Source: Deltaproteobacteria bacterium
GTDB taxonomy: Bacteria; Desulfobacterota; Desulfobulbia; Desulfobulbales; Desulfocapsaceae
DNA: 40,784 bases
Direction: 5' to 3'
Assembly: GCA_024280265.1 (NCBI GenBank)
Contig: JAJRQL010000112.1
Span: forward strand, 1-40,784
Made by a program: the position numbers and the translations under genes. The notes under the pieces were generated by a model. It was given only the letters and a program-made list of their open reading frames with translations. It was not told the origin of the DNA and made no database searches. Every line of letters begins with the position of its first letter. Positions within the stretch are counted from its first letter, which is position 1. Below, piece after piece: positions 21,194-34,049 of this stretch.

Positions 21194-21454
21194 ATGAGAA
21201 TCTTTCGAAACCAGTCAGGCCAGGGAATGACAGAGTACATTATTATTGTTGCCGTAGTTGCTTTAGCCGGGATTGCTGCTTTTTCATATTTTGGGAAAAC
21301 ACTCCGTGGTTCTGCCGCTGACATGAGTGAAACATTGGCTGGAGCTCCCCCCGCAGAAGGTTCAACAAAAGCCAATGCTGCCGCCAAAGAAGCTGACACT
21401 GCTGCTGATCAGGACGCAGACATGAAAACGTACGTGGATCGCAACCAGAACTAA
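21194..21454 (+). CDS. flp: Flp-type (type IVb) pilin-like protein
   Basis: An 86-residue prepilin, probably the major Tad pilus subunit because it is first, short, and has the strongest ribosome site in the locus (AGGAGG). The leader is MRIFRNQSG, with predicted cleavage at G9|Q10. This places Glu14 at +5 and Tyr15 at +6, as in Flp pilins. A single hydrophobic helix (about 16-34) follows. The remaining 50 residues are rich in Ala, Asp, Glu and Lys and likely disordered or helical. It is longer than the ~55-75 residues usual for Flp. Separated by 83 bp from the next gene. Confidence 0.78.
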   Translation: MRIFRNQSGQGMTEYIIIVAVVALAGIAAFSYFGKTLRGSAADMSETLAGAPPAEGSTKANAAAKEADTAADQDADMKTYVDRNQN

Positions 21455-21537
21455 AACACACGATGGTTGCCACACATGCAAAATCCATATACCTAGGAAG
21501 CACCGTGTAACACCCAGACTCCTGTTACAAAGGAAAG

Positions 21538-23325
21538 GTGATTCCTTACTTCACCCCAACCGACCCGGAGCCGGCTAGACGAATGAAATGCACGAACCAG
21601 AAGGGGCAGGCGTCACTCTTTGTACTGGCGTTTACAGGTGTTATTCTGGTCTGCAGCATTTTTCTCTACCAGTCCGGTCGCATCACCAGTGAAAAGATGC
21701 AGCTTCAGAATGCTGCTGATGCTGCAGCATTCAGTGCTTCAACTCTCGAAGCACGTTCTCTCAACTTCTGTGCCTATACTAACCGGGCCATGGTGGCCAA
21801 CGAGGTGGGTATCGGCCAACTGATAGGTCTCCTCTCACTGGTGGATGAAGTAAAGACCGTTGGCAGCAATTTTGAAGACTTTGTGGCTGCCATTGAGACC
21901 ATTCTCAATGCCATCCCTATTGTGGGCAACGCTATCGCACTGGCCATCGACCCCTTTCTGGCACCCATCGAAGCCATCGGTATAGTACTCAATGATACGG
22001 GTGCAGCCATGGAAAAAGTCCTGGCCAAAGTTGCCTCTCCACTGATTCGTGTCCTCTCAGTTGTCAACGAAGCTTACAGTTACAGCCAGATGGGCTATCA
22101 CGGGGCCACGATTTTCATGGTAACCACCACTCTTTTTAAAACCATTGAAGATAATGTACCGGGCACAGATCCCTTCCCCATAACGGAAATATTTGATCAG
22201 AACAGATCCGGCGCTCACCTCTCAGACCTTGGTATTCTGGCCATGGCAGGCCACATCCCCTCCTTCTGGAAGGGCTACACCACAATTCACAAAACCGGTA
22301 AAAACGGCACAAATTCCGGGATGCGGAGGATGGCTGCAACCATCAGGGAAACACGTGACATCTTCAGCAGCGGCGCAGCTGCTGAAGATGAACCATGCAG
22401 CAAAAAGTTCACTCCCTACACCAGGGACTGGCATGTATGCCTGGATCTTAAAATTGATTTTGACATTGATGTCGAACTGGCCTCCGTTGATTTCTGGCTC
22501 GAATTCAAAACCGGGGTGGACAGTCAGGGTACCTCGGAATTACGATTCAAAGAAGACAACTATCTTTGGTCTGCAGTGGATACTTCAATTTTTGTCGTAG
22601 ATATTTCAGCAGGATACTGGGTTACCGACCCGATTAAAGACTTTGGAGGCAGCATTGATATTGGCCTTGATGTACCCACGGGGGGTGGCGGGTATCAGGC
22701 CGCAGGAAATGCCATACTTACTGTCAGCGACATGACTGAAGGTCTTCGAAAAAATGATCCCATCCCTGGTTCCTACGGCTACAGGCTCAAGGAAAAAAAC
22801 TGGCTCTCCTGGGAACAGGCCTCTTTTAAAATGGAAGAAAACATTATTGATACGTACTCAGGTCTGGCCCCGTACCGTGGCATGGGAAGTACAAAACCAG
22901 AATCTTCCAATTACAAACTGCCCTTTGTTTCACCCTACTACCTGGTTGGGGTGGTCAGGAATGTCACAGATGTCCACAAGTCAGGTCCGAAGTTCAGCGG
23001 AAACCTCAACATTCTCAAAAAAGAGCCAAAGATCACCGAAATTGGGGCCATTGCCAAATCTGAGGTCTATTATAGTCGCCCCACTGACCTCTCCTATTTC
23101 CTGCGCCAAGACAACAAGACGGAAAGACCCAATGTCTTCGGCCCGTTCTGGCAAGCCAGACTCTCGAAAACCAGCGACCTGGACCGTTTCCTTGCCATGG
23201 CCATACAGCACGAAACCATTTGGCTTGCCAACCATGATTCAGGGGAAGTCCCCGGGCTGCAGGAATTAAAGAAAGACCTTGAGGCCCTGTCAACAGACCT
23301 CAACAAACTCTTAAAGAGCTTTTAA
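21538..23325 (+). CDS. TadG-like pseudopilin protein
   Basis: A 595-residue protein whose N-terminus matches the TadG-like N-terminal domain: KGQASLFVLAFTGVILVC helix, then SEKMQLQNAADAAAFSAS (about 51-68), the QnaaDaaA motif typical of the family. The rest is a large predicted periplasmic/extracellular region with no von Willebrand A motif seen. It has the G|Q leader motif at G23|Q24 but Phe rather than Glu at +5. The start used is the GTG at 21538, close to AAGGAAAG; ATG at 21583 (MKCTNQKGQ) is a shorter alternative that keeps the leader. Minor pilin or tip/adhesin role is inferred from family and context. Confidence 0.72.
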   Translation: MIPYFTPTDPEPARRMKCTNQKGQASLFVLAFTGVILVCSIFLYQSGRITSEKMQLQNAADAAAFSASTLEARSLNFCAYTNRAMVANEVGIGQLIGLLSLVDEVKTVGSNFEDFVAAIETILNAIPIVGNAIALAIDPFLAPIEAIGIVLNDTGAAMEKVLAKVASPLIRVLSVVNEAYSYSQMGYHGATIFMVTTTLFKTIEDNVPGTDPFPITEIFDQNRSGAHLSDLGILAMAGHIPSFWKGYTTIHKTGKNGTNSGMRRMAATIRETRDIFSSGAAAEDEPCSKKFTPYTRDWHVCLDLKIDFDIDVELASVDFWLEFKTGVDSQGTSELRFKEDNYLWSAVDTSIFVVDISAGYWVTDPIKDFGGSIDIGLDVPTGGGGYQAAGNAILTVSDMTEGLRKNDPIPGSYGYRLKEKNWLSWEQASFKMEENIIDTYSGLAPYRGMGSTKPESSNYKLPFVSPYYLVGVVRNVTDVHKSGPKFSGNLNILKKEPKITEIGAIAKSEVYYSRPTDLSYFLRQDNKTERPNVFGPFWQARLSKTSDLDRFLAMAIQHETIWLANHDSGEVPGLQELKKDLEALSTDLNKLLKSF

Positions 23326-24324
23326 ATGTTTTTTGCACCCAAAAACAATACGGTTCTTAACCAACAGGGGCAGGCTGCGACAGAATTTATTATTGCCGCA
23401 GTCTTTGTCCTCATTCCCCTCTTTCTTCTCATCCCCATCCTCGGAAAATACATAGATATCCGACATGCCGCAATCAACAGAGCACGCTTTGAAGCATGGG
23501 AATATACGGCGTGGAATATCCCGGGACAAGACAAGAGGGTCGCCATAAAGAGCAACCAAAGTGCCGGACAAAGAAAATTTCAAATCACCCAGGCCAGAGC
23601 AGAACACTATTTTTTCAGTGATCCCACCAGCCCCGCCTATACCAACCCGGACAGTCCCTTCACCCCTAACCCGTTATGGGTGGACCACAAAAGCGACTCC
23701 CTTTTTACAGATCCCAGCACAGCAGTCAGTTCCATAAGTGTCAATGAAACCCCAACAAAATTTAAAGGAAACTCTCCAGATGTTCTCAATTTTCTGGTGG
23801 ATGGGATGAATGTCGTTGCCTGGGTATTTGATGAAATCTTGAAAATTGAGCATGTTGACGGGAAGTTCGATGTACTTGAGCCGGAATACAGAAAAAACTA
23901 CGTTCGTTCCGAAGTCACAGTCAAAGTTCGTCCGCTTGATGATATACTACCTCACAATTCTCTTGGCACAGGCCCACAGGAGAACGACACAACGCCGCTT
24001 ACAATACACAGCAAAGCCTCTGTTCTGACAGATTCCTGGAATTCCGGCAGTACCCTGAATGCCAACACTGAGACCAGGGGACTGGTTTTCACAGCGTTCC
24101 TGAACCCCCTTTCACAGGCTATAAACACGATTATCAGCGGGATAAACACAGGATTGAATGATATTCCGCTGATCAGTATCAAACTACCCAACATGCCCGA
24201 CTTTGGTTTAACAGGGCCGCCGGCCAGCAATACAGAAAGTTTCGATGACCTCATTCCCCTTGAATTCCTTGAGGAATCTTCTGCGGAAGTGCAGGAAAAA
24301 TATTCTCTGGATTATTATGAATAG
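23326..24324 (+). CDS. TadE-family pseudopilin-like protein, large
   Basis: A 332-residue protein with a TadE-like N-terminus: leader up to G15, then QAATEFIIAAVFVLIPLFLLI, with Glu20 at +5 after the predicted G15|Q16 cut. The single N-terminal helix anchors a large outer part. There, DFGLTGPPASN and a patch of prolines are seen but no known domain. Its ATG directly follows the TAA of the preceding gene (23323-23325), so the two are likely translationally coupled. TadE/TadF-type pseudopilins are processed by the Tad prepilin peptidase and needed for pilus assembly; this one is much longer than typical TadE (about 150-200). Confidence 0.72.
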   Translation: MFFAPKNNTVLNQQGQAATEFIIAAVFVLIPLFLLIPILGKYIDIRHAAINRARFEAWEYTAWNIPGQDKRVAIKSNQSAGQRKFQITQARAEHYFFSDPTSPAYTNPDSPFTPNPLWVDHKSDSLFTDPSTAVSSISVNETPTKFKGNSPDVLNFLVDGMNVVAWVFDEILKIEHVDGKFDVLEPEYRKNYVRSEVTVKVRPLDDILPHNSLGTGPQENDTTPLTIHSKASVLTDSWNSGSTLNANTETRGLVFTAFLNPLSQAINTIISGINTGLNDIPLISIKLPNMPDFGLTGPPASNTESFDDLIPLEFLEESSAEVQEKYSLDYYE

Positions 24325-25030
24325 CGCTCCTGACTTCAGAAGAAGATACTACCGGATTTTCATCTTCTGGCTGCTCTTTATGGCTATGACAGCCTCAGAC
24401 GTCGCCCATGCGGGTCCGGCGAAATTCCCGGTTCCCGACTGGCTGACGACAACTCAAATTGCAGATGAAATGATCATAAATGGACTCCCTTCGCAGGTGC
24501 AGTACTTTGAGTCAGACAACAGCATCCCAGAACTTCTTGTCTTTTATAGAAATAACTGGCAGGATAAACTTTCCGAGAGCCAGATTTACAAAGAGACCCA
24601 GGCAGCCCCCTGGCAAATCATCTCAAAATTTGACGGCAGATACCTTTACACAGTTCAGGTACGATCGAAAAACCCCTGGGCCATCACAGGCTACCTTGCC
24701 ATAGCAGATCTCAAAGCTGCGAAGAAAAAACCGAAAAAGAAACCTGCAGTGCCACAGATGAGTGGCAGCACTGTCATGAGCGACAGCAGCAGCAGTGATT
24801 CCGGCACACTGGCGCGAACGCTGATGCTCATCAACAGCTATTCTGCAGAAAGCAACGGCAGCTTTTATCGAAACTATTACAGCAGCAGAGGCTGGACGAA
24901 AGTAATGGACACACAAAGTGAAAACACATTTGTCCTGACATTCAAAAAAAACAGTAAAGATGCCCACCTGGTCATAAATCCTACTGGCAACACAACCCAG
25001 ATCGTTATGAATATAACCGAGCAAATATAA
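24317..25030 (+). CDS. Unrecognised exported protein with two similar halves, Tad locus
   Basis: About 237 residues from the ATG at 24317, which overlaps the end of the preceding gene by 8 bp. A signal peptide is visible (FRRRYYRIFIFWLLFMAMTA, cleavage near AHA/GP). Two small alpha/beta segments follow, joined by a KKKPKKKP stretch and a Ser/Asp-rich linker (SDSSSSDSG). The halves look alike: each has FYRN followed by a W, then a hydrophobic strand (YLYTVQVRSK in the first, TFVLTFKKNSK in the second) and a closing strand. I do not recognise the family. Its place between TadE-like genes suggests a periplasmic part of pilus biogenesis. Confidence 0.65.
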   Translation: MNSAPDFRRRYYRIFIFWLLFMAMTASDVAHAGPAKFPVPDWLTTTQIADEMIINGLPSQVQYFESDNSIPELLVFYRNNWQDKLSESQIYKETQAAPWQIISKFDGRYLYTVQVRSKNPWAITGYLAIADLKAAKKKPKKKPAVPQMSGSTVMSDSSSSDSGTLARTLMLINSYSAESNGSFYRNYYSSRGWTKVMDTQSENTFVLTFKKNSKDAHLVINPTGNTTQIVMNITEQI

Positions 25031-25032
25031 GC

Positions 25033-25443
25033 ATGAAAAAAACACCACTTATTCAGAACACACCAATGAAGCTATTGCGCGACCAGAGGGGGCAATCTAC
25101 TGTTGAGTATCTGGTTATCTGTACCGCAATGGTAACACTGTTTCTGGTCTCCTCCTCACAGGACAGTGTTTACAACATGATGAGCCACACCATACACGAT
25201 AAATATGAAAGCTATGCCTTTGGCATCTCCATATCAGATCCTCCCAGCAAAGCCTTTGACGATGCTGTCAAACAGGATGCAGCCAAAATCCAGAAAGCTT
25301 TACATGAACTGGAAGATGTCGCGGATTACATCAAAGACCACCCTCTTCCCGAAACAATTCAATCTGGCGACCTTCCTTCCACATTCGATACAGTCATAAA
25401 AGGATTTAAGGATCTGGTGCAGGATTTGAAGAACCTGCTGTAG
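25033..25443 (+). CDS. Pseudopilin-like protein with G|Q prepilin motif, Tad locus
   Basis: A 136-residue protein with leader ending RDQRG (G20), then QSTVEYLVICTAMVTLFLV; Glu25 is at +5 and Tyr26 at +6, just as in the Flp-like protein at 21194. After the helix, the body is short, acidic-amphipathic and predicted helical (DAAKIQKALHELEDVADYIKDH), unlike large TadE proteins. It starts 2 bp after the stop of the preceding gene. It may be a second minor Flp-type pilin or TadE/F-like pseudopilin; I cannot decide which. Confidence 0.68.
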   Translation: MKKTPLIQNTPMKLLRDQRGQSTVEYLVICTAMVTLFLVSSSQDSVYNMMSHTIHDKYESYAFGISISDPPSKAFDDAVKQDAAKIQKALHELEDVADYIKDHPLPETIQSGDLPSTFDTVIKGFKDLVQDLKNLL

Positions 25444-25507
25444 CCAAAACAACGACAGGCACTCAGAAACAGTACTCTCAATACTCAACAAAAACTGACC
25501 TCAGACT

Positions 25508-27436
25508 ATGGCACAATCAGAACAGGACCAAATCAGAAAAAAAACCTGGAGGCTTTTCACAGCAGCAGTGATTTTCGCACTCCTTGCCGGCCTCGGCACC
25601 ATGCTTTACCTGAAATTTCTTGAGAAAAAACTCGAGACACGTCTCACTCCCCCTCCAAAAGAGATGATCCATGTCATTGTAGCCAGCAAAGATCTACCCG
25701 TTGGGAGTACCATAAACGGCTCCACGGTGTCCAGTCGCCAGGTTCCCCGCACCTATGTCAACAGTGATATTCTCACTCCAGCTGAGTTTGACTCGATCAA
25801 GGGAGCGGTCCTTATAAAACCCCTGAAAAGCGGTAGAATGCTGAGCCGTAGTGCCATCGACTTGAAAATCCCCGAAGATTTTTCAGGAACCATACAGGAG
25901 GGACATCGAGCTATCACCATCCAGGTAGATGAAATAAATTCAATTTCCGGCATGGTCAAGCCTGGAAACGTCATCGACCTCTATACCAAAATGGCATTAC
26001 CCAAGACAGCAGGTACCGGGGTCTCAGGTTTCCGTGAGGCCATCATACCTGTTCTCGAAGATGTACTGGTGCTGGCCACGGATAAAATTTCCGCAAAAGC
26101 AAATAAAGATGAATTTAAATATCTCAATTCCGACAACCGTCATCGCGCATACAATACTCTCACCCTGGAAGTAACCCCAAAAGAGGCTGCATTGATTGCC
26201 ATTGCACAATCCAGGGGAGAACTCATAACCACTCTCCGAAATGCAAATGACACTGGGGGAATACTCTTCAGCAAAGTAACCCTTGCCGACCTGATTGCCC
26301 ATTCCGGCGAGATGCTTGAAGCAGCGGTCAGCAAACAGCACAACAGAAGTACAAGTGGCATTCACTTGAACAAAGAAGGGCAGCTGGTCACACGGAACGG
26401 TGTGATCATCACTGACCCTGACCTCCATCTCGACAAAAATGGCCTACTGGTCACTAAAAACGGGACAATTCTCTCTGGCCGCAACCTGTTCGTCGGTGCA
26501 GATGGGCGCATTCGTGATAAAAACGGTAAACTCATCGACACAGCAAGCCTGAAACCCGGAAAAAACGGTACCCTGGTTGATAAAAACGGTAATGTCCTCA
26601 CTAGTAACGGCTATACAAAGGTAAAGGGCGGTTTTCTGGTGAACCAAAATGGTAATGTTCTCGCTCCGGATGGACATATTCTTTCAGGTCTCACTGTAGG
26701 AAAAGATGGTCGGGTACGCACCAAAGACGGCCGCATTGTAACGGCTGGTCAAATAAGCGTGGGAAAGGATGGTAAGGTACGCATTAACGAGTCCCCCCTT
26801 GCCACTGCAAAGATGGACAAAGACGGGAATCTGCGAACTGCTGACGGCAAAATTATCAAGGCCATCGACCTTGTCACAGTGGGATCAGATGGAATCGTCC
26901 GCAGCAAAAACGGCAAAATCCTGAGGGGAGTACATATGGGCAAAGACGGGAATCTGTACAATGCCACAGGGAAAGAGCTGAACGCTGCCGACATACTTGC
27001 TGCGACAAAAGGATTTACAGCAAACAGTGATGGCACTGTGAGCGACACAAATGGTAAAACGTACACCGCCGAAGATCTTGTAACCGTAGGCAAAGACGGA
27101 ACCATACGAACAAAAGACGGAACCATTTTGAATGGTGCATATGTGGATAAAGATGGCAAGCTGAGGAATAAAGACAGCTCCCTCCTCACTGCCCGGGATA
27201 TTATTGCCCAAAATGCAATTACCAGAGCCGCAGCAGCAAAGGGAGTGATCCTGAAAGGAGTTACCGGCAAATACTCCCCCACATTCAAAGATTACATCAG
27301 TAAGGGAACTCAGCAGACTCCAGGCACTCTTATCCCCTACGAAGTCGAATACATCATTGGTGGCAGCAGCAACGGGCCAGCTCCAACTTTTAAAGTACAG
27401 ATTGATGATGGTAGCCATCAAATCAAGAATAAATAA
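25508..27436 (+). CDS. cpaB: CpaB/RcpC pilus assembly protein with long tandem-repeat insertion
   Basis: CpaB/RcpC is an inner-membrane-anchored periplasmic protein of the Tad apparatus that works with the secretin. The 642-residue product has one N-terminal membrane helix (about 15-36). A SAF-type domain follows (HVIVASKDLPVGSTI, 55-69), then the RcpC core (AITIQVDEINSISGMVKPGNVIDLY, 135-159; TLTLEVTPKEAALIAIAQSRGELITTLRN, 217-245). Residues about 285-566 hold roughly 13 degenerate repeats of ~20 residues of the form VGKDGxVRTKDGKIL. The expected CpaB end, a strand of the type VEYIIGG, reappears at 613-619. Typical family length is about 260-350. Start ATG at 25508 lacks a clear ribosome site. 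Followed 4 bp later by cpaC. Confidence 0.88.
   Translation: MAQSEQDQIRKKTWRLFTAAVIFALLAGLGTMLYLKFLEKKLETRLTPPPKEMIHVIVASKDLPVGSTINGSTVSSRQVPRTYVNSDILTPAEFDSIKGAVLIKPLKSGRMLSRSAIDLKIPEDFSGTIQEGHRAITIQVDEINSISGMVKPGNVIDLYTKMALPKTAGTGVSGFREAIIPVLEDVLVLATDKISAKANKDEFKYLNSDNRHRAYNTLTLEVTPKEAALIAIAQSRGELITTLRNANDTGGILFSKVTLADLIAHSGEMLEAAVSKQHNRSTSGIHLNKEGQLVTRNGVIITDPDLHLDKNGLLVTKNGTILSGRNLFVGADGRIRDKNGKLIDTASLKPGKNGTLVDKNGNVLTSNGYTKVKGGFLVNQNGNVLAPDGHILSGLTVGKDGRVRTKDGRIVTAGQISVGKDGKVRINESPLATAKMDKDGNLRTADGKIIKAIDLVTVGSDGIVRSKNGKILRGVHMGKDGNLYNATGKELNAADILAATKGFTANSDGTVSDTNGKTYTAEDLVTVGKDGTIRTKDGTILNGAYVDKDGKLRNKDSSLLTARDIIAQNAITRAAAAKGVILKGVTGKYSPTFKDYISKGTQQTPGTLIPYEVEYIIGGSSNGPAPTFKVQIDDGSHQIKNK
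26360..27205 (+). other. Region coding ~13 tandem ~20-residue DG/NG repeats within cpaB
   Basis: Encodes CpaB residues about 285-566. Recognisable units begin at IHLNKEG, LHLDKNG, LFVGADG, LKPGKNG, LTVGKDG, ISVGKDG, VTVGSDG, VHMGKDG, VTVGKDG and AYVDKDG, among others. Each unit has two beta-turn DG/NG sites, so a string of beta hairpins is predicted. The units are diverged in DNA as well as protein, so this is not a recent slippage expansion. Confidence 0.8.
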
Positions 27437-27440
27437 CCAT

Positions 27441-28988
27441 ATGAAACCAGCTATACCCAATAAAATTTCTTTTATACGGACAAACACAATGACCGCAGCC
27501 AGGGTTTTTCAATTATTCACAAGGCAGTCAACGTTTCCAGCTCTGATCTTTCCAATTCTGCTCATCCTACTCATCAGCCCCCTTGAAAGCATGGCTCGAG
27601 AAACCATCAATATGTTTCTTGGAGAGGTTCGGGTGCTCCCGACCGACACCATTGAACGGGTGGCCATAGGAAACCCGAAAATTGCTTCAAACTCCATCCT
27701 CCCCCAGGGGCAGTTAGTGTTGCTTGCTGATTCTGCCGGTGCCACCACCATGCATATCTGGCTGAAAAACGGGAAAGAAAAAGATTTCGACATCATTGTA
27801 AGCAACAAGAAGGTTCTTGATGATTACGAAGAACTCGTCTCCCTGCTCAAAGGATTTACTGAGACCAACGTGGCTCGTATTGGTGAACTGACTGTTGTCA
27901 GAGGTAAGGTACCCAAAAAAGACAAAGCTCAATTTGATCGTATCCTGAAACGCTACCAGGACGTTCTCGATCTGGTTACAGCAAGAGACACCAAAGCTGA
28001 AATCTCCCTTTTACTGCAAGATATCCCTGGTATGACCATTAAAGAAGTTGGTGGCCAGACAGTTCTCTCCGGTGAAATCAGCCCGGAGTTTTCTCCACTC
28101 ATTGACATTGTAAAGGACCGATATAATACGATTTTAAACCTGACCCGAGTCCACGATGCCGTAGCAGGAAAAATGATTTACATGAATGTCAAAATCATGG
28201 AACTCAGTAAAAGTATTACTCAGAATCTTGGGATCGAATGGGGAAACTTAGGGATCGTTGGCCCTTCACTGCAATTTGGACTGGAGACATCTGCTGATGG
28301 CGGTACAGTCTTGAATGCTGCCGACACGTCTAAGGTATTAACAAAGCCTGGTGGTGAGAGCCTGAGCTCGACAAGGGGCTACTTTGGCATAGCCACAGGT
28401 ATCACCTCTGTTATCAATCTCTCTTTGCAAAACGGGGATGGCGTCATTCTGGCCGAGCCACAGTTGAGCACCCGCTCCGGTGGAAAGGCAAAATTCCATG
28501 CCGGAGGTGAATACCCCCTTGCCACCACTTCGGTATCCGGACAGGTCAATATTCAATACAAAAAATATGGTATCATTCTCAATGTTGAACCAGTTGCTGA
28601 TGACAACAATAATATCCTGGCCCATATTGAAACAGAAATCAGCAACATTGATCACGGAACAAGTTACAGTGGCTACCCGGGAATCTTCACAAGAAACACC
28701 TCAACTGATGTCAGCCTGCGGGAGGGTGAAACCCTTGTTATGGCAGGGCTGGTTCAAAGTACAGCCCATGACAATTACAACAAGGTTAAATGGCTTGGTG
28801 ACATTCCCATTCTCGGCCCCCTGTTCCGTTCCCAGGATTTTCAAAACCAGCGAACAGAGCTCGTTATTTTTGTAACCCCCTACATTTATGACGCATCCTC
28901 TAAGCTGAATATCAGAAAACTGGTGGAAGCGGAAAGAATCCAGGACCAGTTCGATAAAATTGTAAAAAAACACCAACTCGTCGACTAA
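27441..28988 (+). CDS. cpaC: CpaC/RcpA outer-membrane secretin of the Tad system
   Basis: Forms the outer-membrane channel for the pilus. The 515 residues contain a hydrophobic export signal (about 31-50) and the T2SS/T3SS pilus N-terminal domain (RETINMFLGEVRVLPTDTIERVAIGNPKIA). A BON-like middle part follows (about residues 100-220). The secretin domain includes VNIQYKKYGIILNVEP, ISNIDHGTS and SLREGETLVMAGLVQS, ending with GDIPILGPLFRSQDF and RTELVIFVTPYIYD. The frame is open from 27357, but that part overlaps cpaB; I choose ATG 27441, 4 bp after the cpaB stop. ATG 27489 is an alternative just ahead of the signal. Confidence 0.9.
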   Translation: MKPAIPNKISFIRTNTMTAARVFQLFTRQSTFPALIFPILLILLISPLESMARETINMFLGEVRVLPTDTIERVAIGNPKIASNSILPQGQLVLLADSAGATTMHIWLKNGKEKDFDIIVSNKKVLDDYEELVSLLKGFTETNVARIGELTVVRGKVPKKDKAQFDRILKRYQDVLDLVTARDTKAEISLLLQDIPGMTIKEVGGQTVLSGEISPEFSPLIDIVKDRYNTILNLTRVHDAVAGKMIYMNVKIMELSKSITQNLGIEWGNLGIVGPSLQFGLETSADGGTVLNAADTSKVLTKPGGESLSSTRGYFGIATGITSVINLSLQNGDGVILAEPQLSTRSGGKAKFHAGGEYPLATTSVSGQVNIQYKKYGIILNVEPVADDNNNILAHIETEISNIDHGTSYSGYPGIFTRNTSTDVSLREGETLVMAGLVQSTAHDNYNKVKWLGDIPILGPLFRSQDFQNQRTELVIFVTPYIYDASSKLNIRKLVEAERIQDQFDKIVKKHQLVD

Positions 28989-29020
28989 TTGACATAACTC
29001 CATGAGCAACAATTAACAAA

Positions 29021-30739
29021 ATGTTTAACATCATAATTCACGACGATAAAGGTAACAAAACAGCAACCCTGTGTTGCACAAAGGACAGTTGTGGTATTGG
29101 CCGTTCTGGAAAAAACCTGATTCAGCTCAGCGGTTGGCGCATTGCCGGGGTCCATGCAGAACTGACCGAAAAACAAAACGGTGTTTATATCACCGACACC
29201 TCATCGGGTATTGGCACCCAGGTTAACGGAGAAGACACAACGACATATGGCCCTCTTTCCTCCCAAGACATTGTAAGCATAGGCACCTACCGACTGTCCA
29301 TAAAATCTGAACAGGATACTGCCAAACCACCCCCCAACGAGAGCCAGATCACCACCGAACCTCCTGCTGGACAGGGTAAAGCAGACGATGTGCAGATCAC
29401 GCCAGACAACACCCTGAAAAAAACATTCGGGGTAAAACAGGACTCAGACGCACCAGTCTCTGCACCGGATAACACAGCCCATCGCTTTGTATGGCACGAA
29501 CGAATCCACAAAGAACTACTGGGTGCTATGGATCTTCGCCGTACCGATGTTCAGTCTATGAACGACGAAGAGCTAACCACAACGGTAAAATCCCTTATCC
29601 AGACAATAATTACCAAACTGGACAAAATCCTTCCCGCTGAACTCAACCGAGAAAAGCTGGCCAAAGAAATTCTGGATGAAGCCATTGGACTTGGACCCCT
29701 TGAAGACTTTCTGGCCAATGATTCAATAACCGAAATAATGGTCAACAACTACGATACCATTTTCTACGAAAGCCGTGGTAAATTACACAAATCGGATGTC
29801 ACTTTCAGTAGTGACAATGCAGTACTCTCAGTCATTGAACGTATTATTTCCCCACTGGGAAGACGTATTGACGAAAGTTCTCCGATGGTTGACGGAAGGT
29901 TGAAAGACGGTTCCAGAATCAATGCAATTGTCCCCCCACTGGCCATAAAAGGTCCCTGCCTGACCATCCGGAAATTTGCGAAAAACAAACTTAACATTGA
30001 GGACTTTGTTTCATTTGACTCAATTTCCCATGAAATGGCCCTTTTTCTGGAAAAAGCAGTTCACTACAGAAAAAACATTATTATTTCAGGAGGTACGGGA
30101 AGTGGTAAGACCACATTCCTCAACGTTTTATCGGATTTTATTCCTCGGGACGAACGAATAATTACGGTGGAAGATTCCGCTGAGTTAAAACTGAATCAGC
30201 CCCATGTTGTTTCTCTGGAAGCCCGTCCTCCCAATATGGAAGGAAAAGGATCCATTACCATACGGGATCTGGTAAAAAACTGTCTCCGCATGCGTCCTGA
30301 CCGTATCGTTGTGGGGGAGTGTCGGGGAGGAGAAACCCTTGACATGCTCCAGGCCATGAATACCGGCCATGACGGATCTCTGACAACAGTACATGCTAAC
30401 AGCCCCAGAGACCTGGTATCCCGGCTTGAAGTAATGGTGATGATGGCCGGTATGGAGCTTCCTGAGAGAGCAATCAGGGAACAGATCGCCTCTGCCGTTC
30501 ATGTCATTGTTCAGCAATCTCGATTCTCGGATGGTACACGAAAAATAACTCATATCACCGAGATCACCGGTATGGAAACCGGAGTAGTTCAGATGCAGAA
30601 TATTTTTGTGTATAAACAACACGGAATTGATCAGGATGGCAATGTAACCGGAGAATTTAAGGCCACGGGACGCATACCGGAATTTTATGAGGTACTGCAG
30701 CAACAAGGCGTAACTGTGGATATGAAAATATTCGCCTAA
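29021..30739 (+). CDS. cpaF: Tad secretion ATPase CpaF/TadA with N-terminal FHA domain
   Basis: Hexameric cytoplasmic ATPase that powers pilus assembly. Residues 1-95 form an FHA-like domain (GIGRSGKN, GVHAEL, GTQVNG). A Pro/Thr-rich linker (about 98-150) leads to the CpaF domain. That domain carries ISGGTGSGKTTFL (Walker A, 357-365), the Asp box ITVEDSAELKL, Walker B RIVVGECRGGE (428-438) and the His box TGHDGSLTTVHANS. Fused FHA-CpaF proteins are known in other proteobacteria. Here the usual FHA phosphothreonine-binding Ser-Arg before the His is replaced (AGVH), so binding may differ. Separated from cpaC by 32 bp; 12 bp before tadB. Confidence 0.92.
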   Translation: MFNIIIHDDKGNKTATLCCTKDSCGIGRSGKNLIQLSGWRIAGVHAELTEKQNGVYITDTSSGIGTQVNGEDTTTYGPLSSQDIVSIGTYRLSIKSEQDTAKPPPNESQITTEPPAGQGKADDVQITPDNTLKKTFGVKQDSDAPVSAPDNTAHRFVWHERIHKELLGAMDLRRTDVQSMNDEELTTTVKSLIQTIITKLDKILPAELNREKLAKEILDEAIGLGPLEDFLANDSITEIMVNNYDTIFYESRGKLHKSDVTFSSDNAVLSVIERIISPLGRRIDESSPMVDGRLKDGSRINAIVPPLAIKGPCLTIRKFAKNKLNIEDFVSFDSISHEMALFLEKAVHYRKNIIISGGTGSGKTTFLNVLSDFIPRDERIITVEDSAELKLNQPHVVSLEARPPNMEGKGSITIRDLVKNCLRMRPDRIVVGECRGGETLDMLQAMNTGHDGSLTTVHANSPRDLVSRLEVMVMMAGMELPERAIREQIASAVHVIVQQSRFSDGTRKITHITEITGMETGVVQMQNIFVYKQHGIDQDGNVTGEFKATGRIPEFYEVLQQQGVTVDMKIFA

Positions 30740-30751
30740 CCACGACATACT

Positions 30752-31603
30752 ATGATTATAAACATTCTTATTTCCTGTCTGGCTGCAGCTTCCGCTGGGA
30801 TTTTTGCCTGGTTGTTCTTCATGAAGATGTACGAAAAAATGACCTTCTACAGAAACACAGTCGAAGAAATCGCAACTGACAAATTTTCCGAACTCTTTCT
30901 GTTCGTCAATATCAGCAACTATTTCTATTATTATATCGCAGCCCTTATAGTGTTTCCGATCATCACAATAATCCTTTCCGGCGATATCTCCATCGGTATT
31001 CTTCTGTTTTTCTGTATTCTTTTCTCTCCATATGTAATTCTGACCACCATGATCAGGAAGCGGCAGAAAAAGTTTGAGAAACAGCTACCGGATGCCCTGA
31101 TCATGATTGCCGGCTCGATCAGATCCGGTTCCAGTCTTCCCATTGCCCTGGATAATCTGATCAAAGAAAGCGAGCCACCACTTTCACAGGAATTCGGCCT
31201 CTATGTCCGTGAGCGTAAACTTGGCCTGGACAGAGAGACTGCGTTTAAAAACCTCGAACACAGAATGCCCCTTGAGGATCTTGCAATTTCACTTTCTGCG
31301 GTACGTATATCCACTGAAGTTGGTGGAGACCTTGCCCAAACACTGGAATTACTGGCCGAAACATTAAGAAAAAAGCTCACCATGGAAGGAAAGATAGAAA
31401 GCCTTACCTCCCAGGGAAAACTTCAGGGGATAGTTATGAGTTCCCTTCCACTGTTCCTTATTGTCTGTTTGATGAAACTTGAACCCGTAGCCATGGGTCA
31501 GATGTTCACAACTAAAATTGGTTGGATGGTACTGTTAACAGTGCTCTGTATGCAGATAATGGGCTATCTCTTTATAAAAAAGATCACCACGATTAATGTA
31601 TGA
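30752..31603 (+). CDS. tadB: Tad inner-membrane platform protein TadB
   Basis: T2SSF-domain membrane protein that forms the assembly platform with TadC. The 283 residues have an N-terminal hydrophobic helix (about 5-25), two further helices (about 50-97), the cytoplasmic T2SSF domain (FEKQLPDALIMIAGSIRSGSS onward, with AVRISTEVGGDLAQTLELLAETLR), and two C-terminal helices. The order TadB then TadC and the four-base overlap (ATGA, 31600-31603) with the next gene are typical of tad operons. Length matches the family. Confidence 0.9.
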   Translation: MIINILISCLAAASAGIFAWLFFMKMYEKMTFYRNTVEEIATDKFSELFLFVNISNYFYYYIAALIVFPIITIILSGDISIGILLFFCILFSPYVILTTMIRKRQKKFEKQLPDALIMIAGSIRSGSSLPIALDNLIKESEPPLSQEFGLYVRERKLGLDRETAFKNLEHRMPLEDLAISLSAVRISTEVGGDLAQTLELLAETLRKKLTMEGKIESLTSQGKLQGIVMSSLPLFLIVCLMKLEPVAMGQMFTTKIGWMVLLTVLCMQIMGYLFIKKITTINV

Positions 31604-32487
31604 TAACTGACAATTTTTACAATCTGATAGTAGGAATGAGCGTCTCCCTGTCACTTTTCTGTTCTTTTCTGGCAGTTCTGCAACTGAGTAAACTGGTTCC
31701 CCAGGAGGATCGTGAATATATGGATTCACTTCCACCGCTTCTGGATTTCATCTGGCCGCTGGTTCGCATTGTTGCCTATTACGGATGCAGCCTGATTCCA
31801 TTTTCCTATATGAAAAAGGTTGACGAACGTCTAAAACGAAATGGGCTCGGGTACATGATGATAGCTGAAGAGTTCACAGCTCTCAGAATCATCGCCGCAT
31901 TCACAGTCCTTCTTTTTGGGTATCTTGCAATCTCCTTTATTGGAGAATGGAATCCTCTTCTTTTTATTGTCCTGCCAGCCCTTGGGTTTTTTTATCCAGA
32001 CATATGGATTCGAGACATCAGGAAAAAGCAGGTTGAAGAGACCCTCCGCTCTCTCCCCGCATTCCTTGACTTTATTACCATGGCCGTTGAAGCAGGTCTC
32101 AATTTTTCAGGAGCAATCGAGCAGGCAAGACAGAAAGGGCCTTCCGGCCCACTGGCAATTGAGTTCGGGGTGGTCCTTCGAGACATCCGTTCCGGCGTCC
32201 CGCGTACCAAAGCCCTGCAGCGAATGGCCAGGCGCCTTGACATCCATGAGGTTACAAGCTTTGTCAATGCTGTGGTGCAGGCGGAAAAAATGGGTTCAAG
32301 CATGGCAGCCGTACTCCGGATTCAAGCAGAACAACGCCGCGACGAACGTTTCCAGAGAGCTGAAAAAAAAGCAATGGAAGCGCCGGTGAAACTTATCGGT
32401 CCCCTGGTCATCTTCATTTTTCCAACAACTTTTATAGTTCTGGCTTTCCCCATTGCCATTAAATTTATTCAGGGAGGATATTTTTGA
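31600..32487 (+). CDS. tadC: Tad inner-membrane platform protein TadC
   Basis: Second T2SSF-domain platform subunit, 295 residues. N-terminal membrane helices (about 8-28 and others to 130) precede the domain with RSLPAFLDFITMAVEAGLNFSGAIEQA and VTSFVNAVVQAEKMGSSMAAVLRIQAEQRR, a typical T2SSF signature. Two C-terminal helices end in PLVIFIFPTTFIVLAFPI. It overlaps tadB by four bases and the DUF192 gene start by four, which predicts tight translational coupling. Confidence 0.9.
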   Translation: MITDNFYNLIVGMSVSLSLFCSFLAVLQLSKLVPQEDREYMDSLPPLLDFIWPLVRIVAYYGCSLIPFSYMKKVDERLKRNGLGYMMIAEEFTALRIIAAFTVLLFGYLAISFIGEWNPLLFIVLPALGFFYPDIWIRDIRKKQVEETLRSLPAFLDFITMAVEAGLNFSGAIEQARQKGPSGPLAIEFGVVLRDIRSGVPRTKALQRMARRLDIHEVTSFVNAVVQAEKMGSSMAAVLRIQAEQRRDERFQRAEKKAMEAPVKLIGPLVIFIFPTTFIVLAFPIAIKFIQGGYF

Positions 32488-32840
32488 TTACCGGTCAGAT
32501 TCTCATTAACCCTCCCTTGGGAAAGTCCCTCCGGTTTATCAGAAAAACCGAAACTTTTATTGACCGGAGCCGTGGGTTACTGGGCTGTACAGTTCTTGAG
32601 GAAGGCCATGGCATGCTCATCACCCCATGTAACTCTATTCATACTTTTTTTATGAAAATCCCCCTGGATATCATCTTCCTGGATCAAAACAGTCGAATTA
32701 TCAGTATGAGAGGAAGCATAATGCCCTACCGTTTCAGTATGTGTCGTGGTGCCTCATCAGTTCTGGAATTACCGGATGGACAAATCCAGATCTCAGGTCT
32801 GAAAAAAAACGATCTGCTTCAATGGGTGGCACTATCATGA
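32484..32840 (+). CDS. DUF192 protein embedded in the tad operon
   Basis: A 118-residue protein with the DUF192 signature: FIDRSRGLLGC, ITPCNSIHTFFMKIPLDIIFLD (about 47-68), SIMPYRFSMCRGASSVLELPDGQ. No signal peptide or membrane helix is seen, whereas many DUF192 proteins are exported. The start is a TTG at 32484-32486 inside the end of tadC, with AGGGAGGA at 32471-32478, well spaced, supporting real expression. It overlaps tadD by four bases. DUF192 function is unknown; its tight packing between tadC and tadD suggests a role in pilus biogenesis. Confidence 0.82.
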   Translation: MITGQILINPPLGKSLRFIRKTETFIDRSRGLLGCTVLEEGHGMLITPCNSIHTFFMKIPLDIIFLDQNSRIISMRGSIMPYRFSMCRGASSVLELPDGQIQISGLKKNDLLQWVALS

Positions 32841-33292
32841 CCATTCTGAAATATGTTTTCCAAATCACCCTCCTGTTTCTGCCACTCTTTGCTGGCTGCG
32901 CAGCACATAGCAACCTCCTGCTTGTTCGGGAACAGGCATATGAAGCATATCAAAACAGAGATTATGACAGAGCCGTCAGAAAGTTTGAATTACTGGTATC
33001 CAAAGCACCAGAAGATGGCGAGCTCTGGTTCCGCCTTGGGAATTCATACGCCAGATCCGCAAGACCACAGCTTGCTATTAATGCATACCAGAACGCACTG
33101 CTACGTGTCCCTGGCAATGAAAAAGCATGGTATAACATGGGACTGATCCAGGCTAAAACAGCATTGAAAACATTTGTTGATATGCAGCAATATTCAGATG
33201 ATAACAGCCCCATAGGAAAAAAGGGTGGGAGTATGCGGCAAGGCTTATTCAATCTGCTGGAAACTGAAGATGACCACAAAAAAAACAACTAG
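32837..33292 (+). CDS. tadD: TadD-like TPR lipoprotein
   Basis: A 151-residue lipoprotein, lipobox FAGC (Cys21), then TPR units: REQAYEAYQNRDYDRAVRKFELLVSKAPED and GELWFRLGNSYARSARPQLAINAYQNALLRVPGN and EKAWYNMGLIQAKTAL. TadD is a pilotin-type outer-membrane partner of the secretin in Tad systems. The ATG at 32837 overlaps the DUF192 stop (ATGA); the frame is open from 32741, but that would bury the lipobox. It is shorter than classical TadD (about 200-250), with perhaps three TPRs. Confidence 0.82.
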   Translation: MTILKYVFQITLLFLPLFAGCAAHSNLLLVREQAYEAYQNRDYDRAVRKFELLVSKAPEDGELWFRLGNSYARSARPQLAINAYQNALLRVPGNEKAWYNMGLIQAKTALKTFVDMQQYSDDNSPIGKKGGSMRQGLFNLLETEDDHKKNN

Positions 33293-34049
33293 ACGAAATG
33301 CCAGTATCTTTTTTCTGATCATGCCCAGATCAGAAGCAGGTCAGAGCATGGCTGAATTTTTGATAATCCTGCCCGCCATGATCCTGCTGATCTTTGGCAG
33401 CATTCAATTTGCACTCATCTATCACGCCAAAATAAGCCTCAACTATGCAGCCTTCGAAGCAGTTCGTGCCGGAACACTGGGACAGGGAAAATTTGTTGAG
33501 GTAAAAGAGGGCTTTGCCAGAGGTCTGGCACCCCTTTACAGCTATTTCGAGTCAAACTCAGCCCTCCGGGATAAGCGAGATCCGGACAGCACTGCCCAAG
33601 ACCAGGTCGAAGCCTTCCAAATGGCACGTGATGAAATATACAGAGAATTTGATTCACCCAGCAAACTGATCAGGATTGAGCGTCTGGGCCCCTCCGAAAA
33701 GACACTTCACGTCTTTTCGCCAGACGACACCATGCCAAACGACAACCTCAGATACCGTTCATCAAAAAAACAGGGAAAAGCTCAGGTATCATTACAGGAT
33801 GCGAACCTGCTCCACCTCCGTGTTACTTACTGGTATCCCCTGTATGTCCCCTTCGTGAACAAACTGATATTCAACACCTTTATCTGTCGCAAGAAATCAA
33901 CGAGCTCTTCAGGAAAATGGGACAATGACCCTGTCTGCCTCGACCAGGGGCAGCGACCGGTTATTCCGTTGACAGCCACGGCAGTTATGCGAATGCAAAC
34001 ACCGATGGTTAAAAGTAATGGTTACTTCGATGCCAGTGATCTTCAGTAA
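33270..34049 (+). CDS. tadE: TadE-family pseudopilin, end of tad operon
   Basis: A 259-residue TadE-like protein. Leader to G24, then QSMAEFLIILPAMILLIFGSIQFALIYHAKISLNYAAFEAVRAG, the clear TadE motif, with Glu29 at +5 of G24|Q25. A large outer part follows that ends with FNTFICRKKSTSSSG and a region rich in Thr/Met. The start at 33270 overlaps the end of tadD by 23 bp; ATG 33321 (MPRSEAGQS) would give a much shorter leader and is an alternative. Last gene of the locus; no convincing terminator seen after it. Confidence 0.82.
   Translation: MTTKKTTRRNASIFFLIMPRSEAGQSMAEFLIILPAMILLIFGSIQFALIYHAKISLNYAAFEAVRAGTLGQGKFVEVKEGFARGLAPLYSYFESNSALRDKRDPDSTAQDQVEAFQMARDEIYREFDSPSKLIRIERLGPSEKTLHVFSPDDTMPNDNLRYRSSKKQGKAQVSLQDANLLHLRVTYWYPLYVPFVNKLIFNTFICRKKSTSSSGKWDNDPVCLDQGQRPVIPLTATAVMRMQTPMVKSNGYFDASDLQ

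Follow-up and report, generated by a model that had tools for sequence, protein, structure and literature searches.

A probable periplasmic spacer of beta-turn repeats inserted in the Tad pilus protein CpaB of Desulfobulbia

In one group of sulfur-cycling bacteria, the Tad pilus protein CpaB (RcpC) carries a long array of beta-turn repeats, probably a stiff spacer that extends in the direction of the outer-membrane pore. The window, i.e., the whole 40,784-nucleotide stretch of DNA analyzed here, encodes one such protein of 642 aa on its forward strand (25508..27436, +), in which the array separates the ring domain (D2 with the linker L3) from a predicted C-terminal hairpin (VEYIIGG...TFKVQI). 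No literature report of repeat arrays in CpaB was found.

A CpaB with an inserted repeat array in a conserved Tad operon

The 642-aa frame was identified as CpaB through a match to TIGR03177 (E 1.6e-35, 122.6 bits against a cut-off of 71), along with matches to the RcpC domain PF16976 (E 4.6e-22, 78.5 bits against a curated cut-off of 28.8) and the SAF domain PF08666 (E 3e-7, 31.3 bits against a curated cut-off of 21). Its first 284 residues are those of an ordinary CpaB, including a membrane helix, a SAF domain (D1), and an RcpC domain (D2). The N-terminal transmembrane helix occupies approximately residues 14–36 (25547..25615, +; TAAVIFALLAGLGTMLYL), with an AlphaFold2 model placing the helix at residues 4–46, and is followed by D1 at residues 52–120 (25661..25867, +; PF08666; VIA Z 11.6 to FlgA) and by the D2 ring domain at residues 125–244 (25880..26239, +; PF16976 E 1e-22). 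The predicted D1/D2 fold resembles that of P. aeruginosa RcpC, whose cryo-EM structure (9gzr) was the best Foldseek match to CpaB (E 1.5e-10), and D2 was aligned to 9gzr_A by VIA with a Z of 10.9 over 104 residues (rmsd 3.5).

Beyond D2, residues 250–283 (26255..26356, +) form an L3-like linker with a '(V/T)LxxLL'-like motif common to array-free CpaBs, which by its position would be equivalent to the oligomerization linker L3 of RcpC. The repeat array then spans residues 284–565 (26357..27202, +) and is followed by a connector (residues 566–611; 27203..27340, +), the start of which is predicted to be helical, with an AlphaFold2 pLDDT above 80 up to about residue 590 and below 50 from residue 597. 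Close to its end, the protein has a putative C-terminal beta-hairpin (residues 612–631; 27341..27400, +), predicted as two strands at pLDDT <50 in a full-length model that is itself weak (pLDDT 66.9, pTM 0.39). Since this element shares its pattern and position with the 'VEVIRG...V.F' end of array-free CpaBs, it is, by analogy with RcpC, the presumed secretin-docking element. A first-pass annotation had taken VEYIIGG for a final strand coming back to the core after the repeats; it does follow the array, but it is not a strand that returns to the core, and its position makes it the opening strand of the C-terminal hairpin.

In most of the array-free CpaBs examined, a short, variable, and often Pro/Lys-rich linker precedes the 'VEVIRG...V.F' type end, while array-bearing CpaBs display, in this order, the L3-like motif, the array, and 'VEYIIGG...TFKVQI'. 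The array thus stands in the place of the linker. In the nearest array-free relative (L041), the core leads almost directly into 'ITFYIGGKG'.

The cpaB gene is part of a 13-gene Tad operon (21194..34049, +) delineated from Pfam matches and the gene order shared by relatives: flp, tadG, a tadE-like gene, a gene for a 231-aa protein, a pilin-like gene, cpaB, cpaC, FHA-cpaF, tadB, tadC, a DUF192 gene, tadD, and tadE. Every array-bearing locus with sufficient flanking sequence has this same order, observed in five other loci (L043, L044, L045, L047, and L089), and two more are cut by contig ends (L042 and L046). The cpaC gene (27441..28988, +) encodes the secretin (PF00263 8e-40; PF13629 5.1e-15), the sole PF13629 protein found in the genome, and PF13629 is the N-terminal domain on which the hairpin would dock. 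A search for CpaD (PF09476) that does detect the protein in Caulobacter found none in this genome (G000).

Other members of the operon were also surveyed. The CpaF ATPase (29021–30739) combines an N-terminal FHA domain (PF00498, 2.4e-11) with PF00437 (3.1e-64), and its homologues in the array-bearing loci that reach this gene are frames of similar length (581–615 aa). The DUF192 gene (32484–32840; PF02643 4.3e-18), located between tadC and tadD, has the same position in those array-bearing loci whose flanks extend far enough. The 231-aa protein (24335–25030), whose gene precedes the pilin-like gene and cpaB, had no Pfam or NCBIfam match, and this gene is kept in all array-bearing loci as well as in the array-free relative L093.

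Composition, age, and selection of the array

Residues 284–565 split without remainder into 13 contiguous units of about 21 aa (range 19–26 aa), which confirms the array first noticed at residues ~285–566. These units hold 24 DG/NG dipeptides against 7.1 expected, with a maximum of 17 across 10,000 shuffles of the array's own composition. DG and NG are mixed among these turns rather than strictly alternating, as the first-pass annotation had described them. Spacing between turns is mostly 7 and 14, so that a unit corresponds to about three heptads, and autocorrelation peaks at 21, 7, 14, and 28. Hydrophobic positions lie between the Gly turns (123 regular turn pairs from eight proteins). The profiles PF22692 (flagellar FlgE/F/G D1 domain) and PF12396 (DUF3659) scored above their cut-offs on the array, and no further copies of it were found elsewhere in the genome.

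The units are diverged, as Tandem Repeats Finder reported no DNA-level tandem repeat in the array. Orthologous units are 46–77% identical between species, compared to means of 26–38% for paralogous units, and dN/dS was estimated at ~0.1, the same as for the core, with synonymous sites near saturation. From this better match between orthologues than between paralogues, along with the low dN/dS, the array is old, kept, and under purifying selection equal to that of the core, in agreement with the age initially proposed from its diverged units.

Distribution across Desulfobacterota

Within the window's GTDB class (Desulfobulbia), CpaB was detected in 33 of 219 genomes with a completeness of at least 80%, eight of which encode the array (G000, G006, G008, G012, G042, G063, G084, and G172). 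These eight belong to two families, and named records are Desulfobulbaceae and Desulfocapsa MAGs. At the phylum level, CpaB was found in 93 of 395 Desulfobacterota genomes. Leaving the window's CpaB aside, above-cut-off frames in this sample did not exceed 481 aa, and the 481-aa frame has no array; the other CpaB frames of the sample are hence too short to hold the array or lack it, and the array is as unusual for this protein as had been suspected. A 665-aa CpaB-like frame in another genome (G459) was rejected as CpaB, being a weak match below the cut-off that reads as Ig-like repeats. When an array profile was searched against 297 Desulfobacterota genomes, the only matches beyond CpaB were proteins reading as flagellar hook proteins, which likely share the same kind of turn but are not the same protein. 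The phage records searched gave no match. Outside Desulfobacterota, array-bearing CpaBs were likewise absent from one contig scan with two core peptides and from a plasmid collection.

The cores of array-bearing CpaBs form one clade (support 96/85), to which L041 is adjacent, though on a long branch. As estimated from tail lengths, the array of relatives extends over ~181 to 368 residues, or ~8 to 17 units. An assembly artefact was ruled out by the presence of the same architecture in independent MAGs. In two related genomes, the array is split by contig ends, its 3' portion being carried by a separate contig (L003, L005, L009, and L010), and because of such breaks array genes are under-counted in draft assemblies.

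Predicted fold of the array

Modeled alone with AlphaFold2, the array displayed a pLDDT of 84.2 without any residue stretch below 50, and a pTM of 0.58; the structure prediction thus came back ordered throughout, with short strands about every 7 residues. The array is probably a turn-rich, elongated beta structure, whether a rod, a solenoid, or an intertwined fibre. The beta-hairpin rod initially envisioned fits the 7-residue strand period, but a solenoid or an oligomeric fibre fits it too, and the structural matches obtained are local. A sequence search against solved structures returned nothing significant for the array (best E 0.06), and VIA alignment to the PDB yielded a Z of 2.1 at most, with no whole-fold match.

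Against viral models, the Foldseek list consisted mostly of shafts of adenovirus fibres, whose fold is a trimeric beta-spiral. An unlikely alternative is an oligomeric beta-fibre, in which strands of neighboring subunits would intertwine into a continuous tube or fibres and, in place of separate arms, would add another walled barrel on top of the ring. Such a structure would suit the short hydrophobic pairs found between Gly turns, the membership of CpaB in an oligomeric ring family, and a monomer model that is confident locally but unsure globally, although the viral matches themselves are local only (rmsd 20–60 A, probability <0.65).

In the PDB, Foldseek matches to the array were also only local and included glucan-/choline-binding repeats, toxin repeats, and Rhs, with glucan-binding sucrases at the top and LytA choline-binding repeats lower down. 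Choline- or glucan-binding repeats attach proteins to the wall, and the array might by analogy be a module binding peptidoglycan or another glycan, which would anchor the Tad machine to the cell wall. This would be in line with a CpaD that was not found, and hence a wall or outer-membrane link that might be missing, and with the recruitment of Caulobacter CpaI near the wall (PMC13170226). For the choline/glucan-binding fold, Foldseek gave an E of 4.6e-6 with a TM of 0.12, and VIA did not list it. We nevertheless consider wall binding quite improbable: the sucrase- and LytA-type matches have low TM-scores and an rmsd ≥14 A, VIA gave a Z of at most 2.1, and no sugar-binding family scored above its cut-off on CpaB. 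Moreover, the 282 residues of the array include no Trp, 4 Tyr, and 3 Phe, and thus lack the aromatic stacks on which sugars usually bind.

A probable spacer between periplasmic ring and secretin

The RcpC of P. aeruginosa assembles as a 12-mer periplasmic ring conduit with a pore of ~5 nm, its linker L3 is required for oligomerization, and its C-terminal hairpin is required for pilus function and was modeled on the secretin N-domain, which in the published RcpC–RcpA model also contacts D2 (PMC12307814). The explanation we favor, and regard as reasonably probable, is that the array is a structured periplasmic spacer that bears the secretin-docking hairpin, in place of a flexible linker. The linker between D2 with L3 and the docking hairpin would have been replaced by, or expanded into, 13 beta-turn repeats. 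If the ring is like that of RcpC, twelve copies would provide twelve arms around the pilus path, which would hold the docking hairpins several nanometres further out from the inner membrane, allowing these to contact the N-domains of the secretin across the periplasm. Both the rod-like shape of the array and a ring and hairpin working as in P. aeruginosa are here inferred. By our own estimate from general fold geometry, the array would measure ~6 nm if a beta-solenoid (0.48 nm per coil) or ~13 nm if made of stacked hairpins (~1 nm per unit).

A spacer is favored by the match of the core to RcpC in both sequence and fold, by the linker that array-free CpaBs have at this point, by the predicted order, purifying selection, and unit-by-unit conservation of the array, by the single clade of its carriers, by a conserved operon whose secretin possesses the docking domain, and, as a parallel, by similar arrays in DotG, where they separate the membrane helix from the TrbI domain of a conduit protein that also spans the envelope. 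Conversely, the published contact between secretin N-domain and D2 argues against it, as a long spacer would separate the two, and so do the weak full-length model with its low-confidence hairpin and the number of units, the variation of which means that array length is not tightly fixed.

The same variation bears on the suggestion, made in the first-pass annotation, that the array sets channel length: while its placement towards the secretin fits a channel extension, the setting of an exact length is weakened by units varying about twofold between species with the same operon. A length ruler, whose unit number would precisely determine the length of the channel or some property of the pilus, would suit an array that has a fixed place and units that can be counted, and both the window and L043 have ~13 units; with relatives ranging from ~8 to 17 units in the same operon, and one relative differing by an insert of ~85 residues, we consider it very unlikely. 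Finally, although repeats expand easily and their number varies here, a neutral repeat expansion in a linker without specific function is highly implausible given the dN/dS equal to the core, the orthology of units by position, and the ordered prediction for the array.

The crossing of the periplasm by the Tad pilus was modeled only in 2025. If the array is indeed a structured spacer, a docking hairpin placed behind a countable number of units would offer a natural test of array length against ring–secretin distance.

Comparison with known systems

Across the plasmid collection, only two records matched the array, and both are DotG/IcmE/VirB10 proteins encoded beside DotH/IcmK genes. In the Teredinibacter purpureus plasmid protein (L081:2275-8670, 2131 aa), the DG/NG array ends before the TrbI domain, is much longer than that of CpaB, and has a mixed 7/8/9 spacing, and the Salinimonas iocasae plasmid protein (L096:1640-5815, 1391 aa) also includes long DG/NG-turn repeats. 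As in CpaB, the array of DotG/IcmE (VirB10/TrbI family) is located between an N-terminal membrane helix and a C-terminal domain; unlike in CpaB, it is associated with an unrelated core domain and an unrelated secretion system. The CpaB and DotG arrays aligned at 28% over 229 columns (E 9e-11 if the database is taken to be 50 million residues), a match clear of reversed and shuffled copies (best of 20 shuffles E 0.23). In the Legionella core complex, a beta-helix was provisionally assigned to DotG (PMC7511231). The CpaB and DotG arrays may share an origin or may have converged on a simple repeat. More doubtfully, DG/NG arrays may represent a shared, portable, periplasm-crossing module, i.e., a rigid or tubular extension from an inner-membrane assembly to an outer-membrane pore, used in both Tad CpaB and type IVB DotG with a length tuned by unit number. 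The DotG parallel hints at a construction principle of general use in machines that span the envelope.

Among Tad systems, P. aeruginosa RcpC (9gzr) shares with the window's CpaB the transmembrane helix, D1 (SAF), D2, an L3-like linker, and, by prediction, the C-terminal hairpin, as well as a Tad operon with a secretin. It differs in its length of 303 aa and in the short linker before its hairpin, where the window's CpaB carries the 282-aa array. Caulobacter crescentus CpaB is likewise an alignment protein of the inner membrane, and its C-terminal hairpin is predicted to pack on CpaI (PMC13170226); C. crescentus has CpaD, unlike the window's genome, in which CpaD was not found. The Kil system of Myxococcus xanthus (PMC8460266) is, like that of the window, a Tad-like system whose CpaF-type ATPase (KilF in Kil) bears an FHA domain at its N-terminus. 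However, neither TadG nor TadD nor a secretin N0 domain is present in Kil, whereas the window encodes a secretin N-terminal domain (PF13629), a TadG-like protein (PF13400), and a TPR TadD-like protein.
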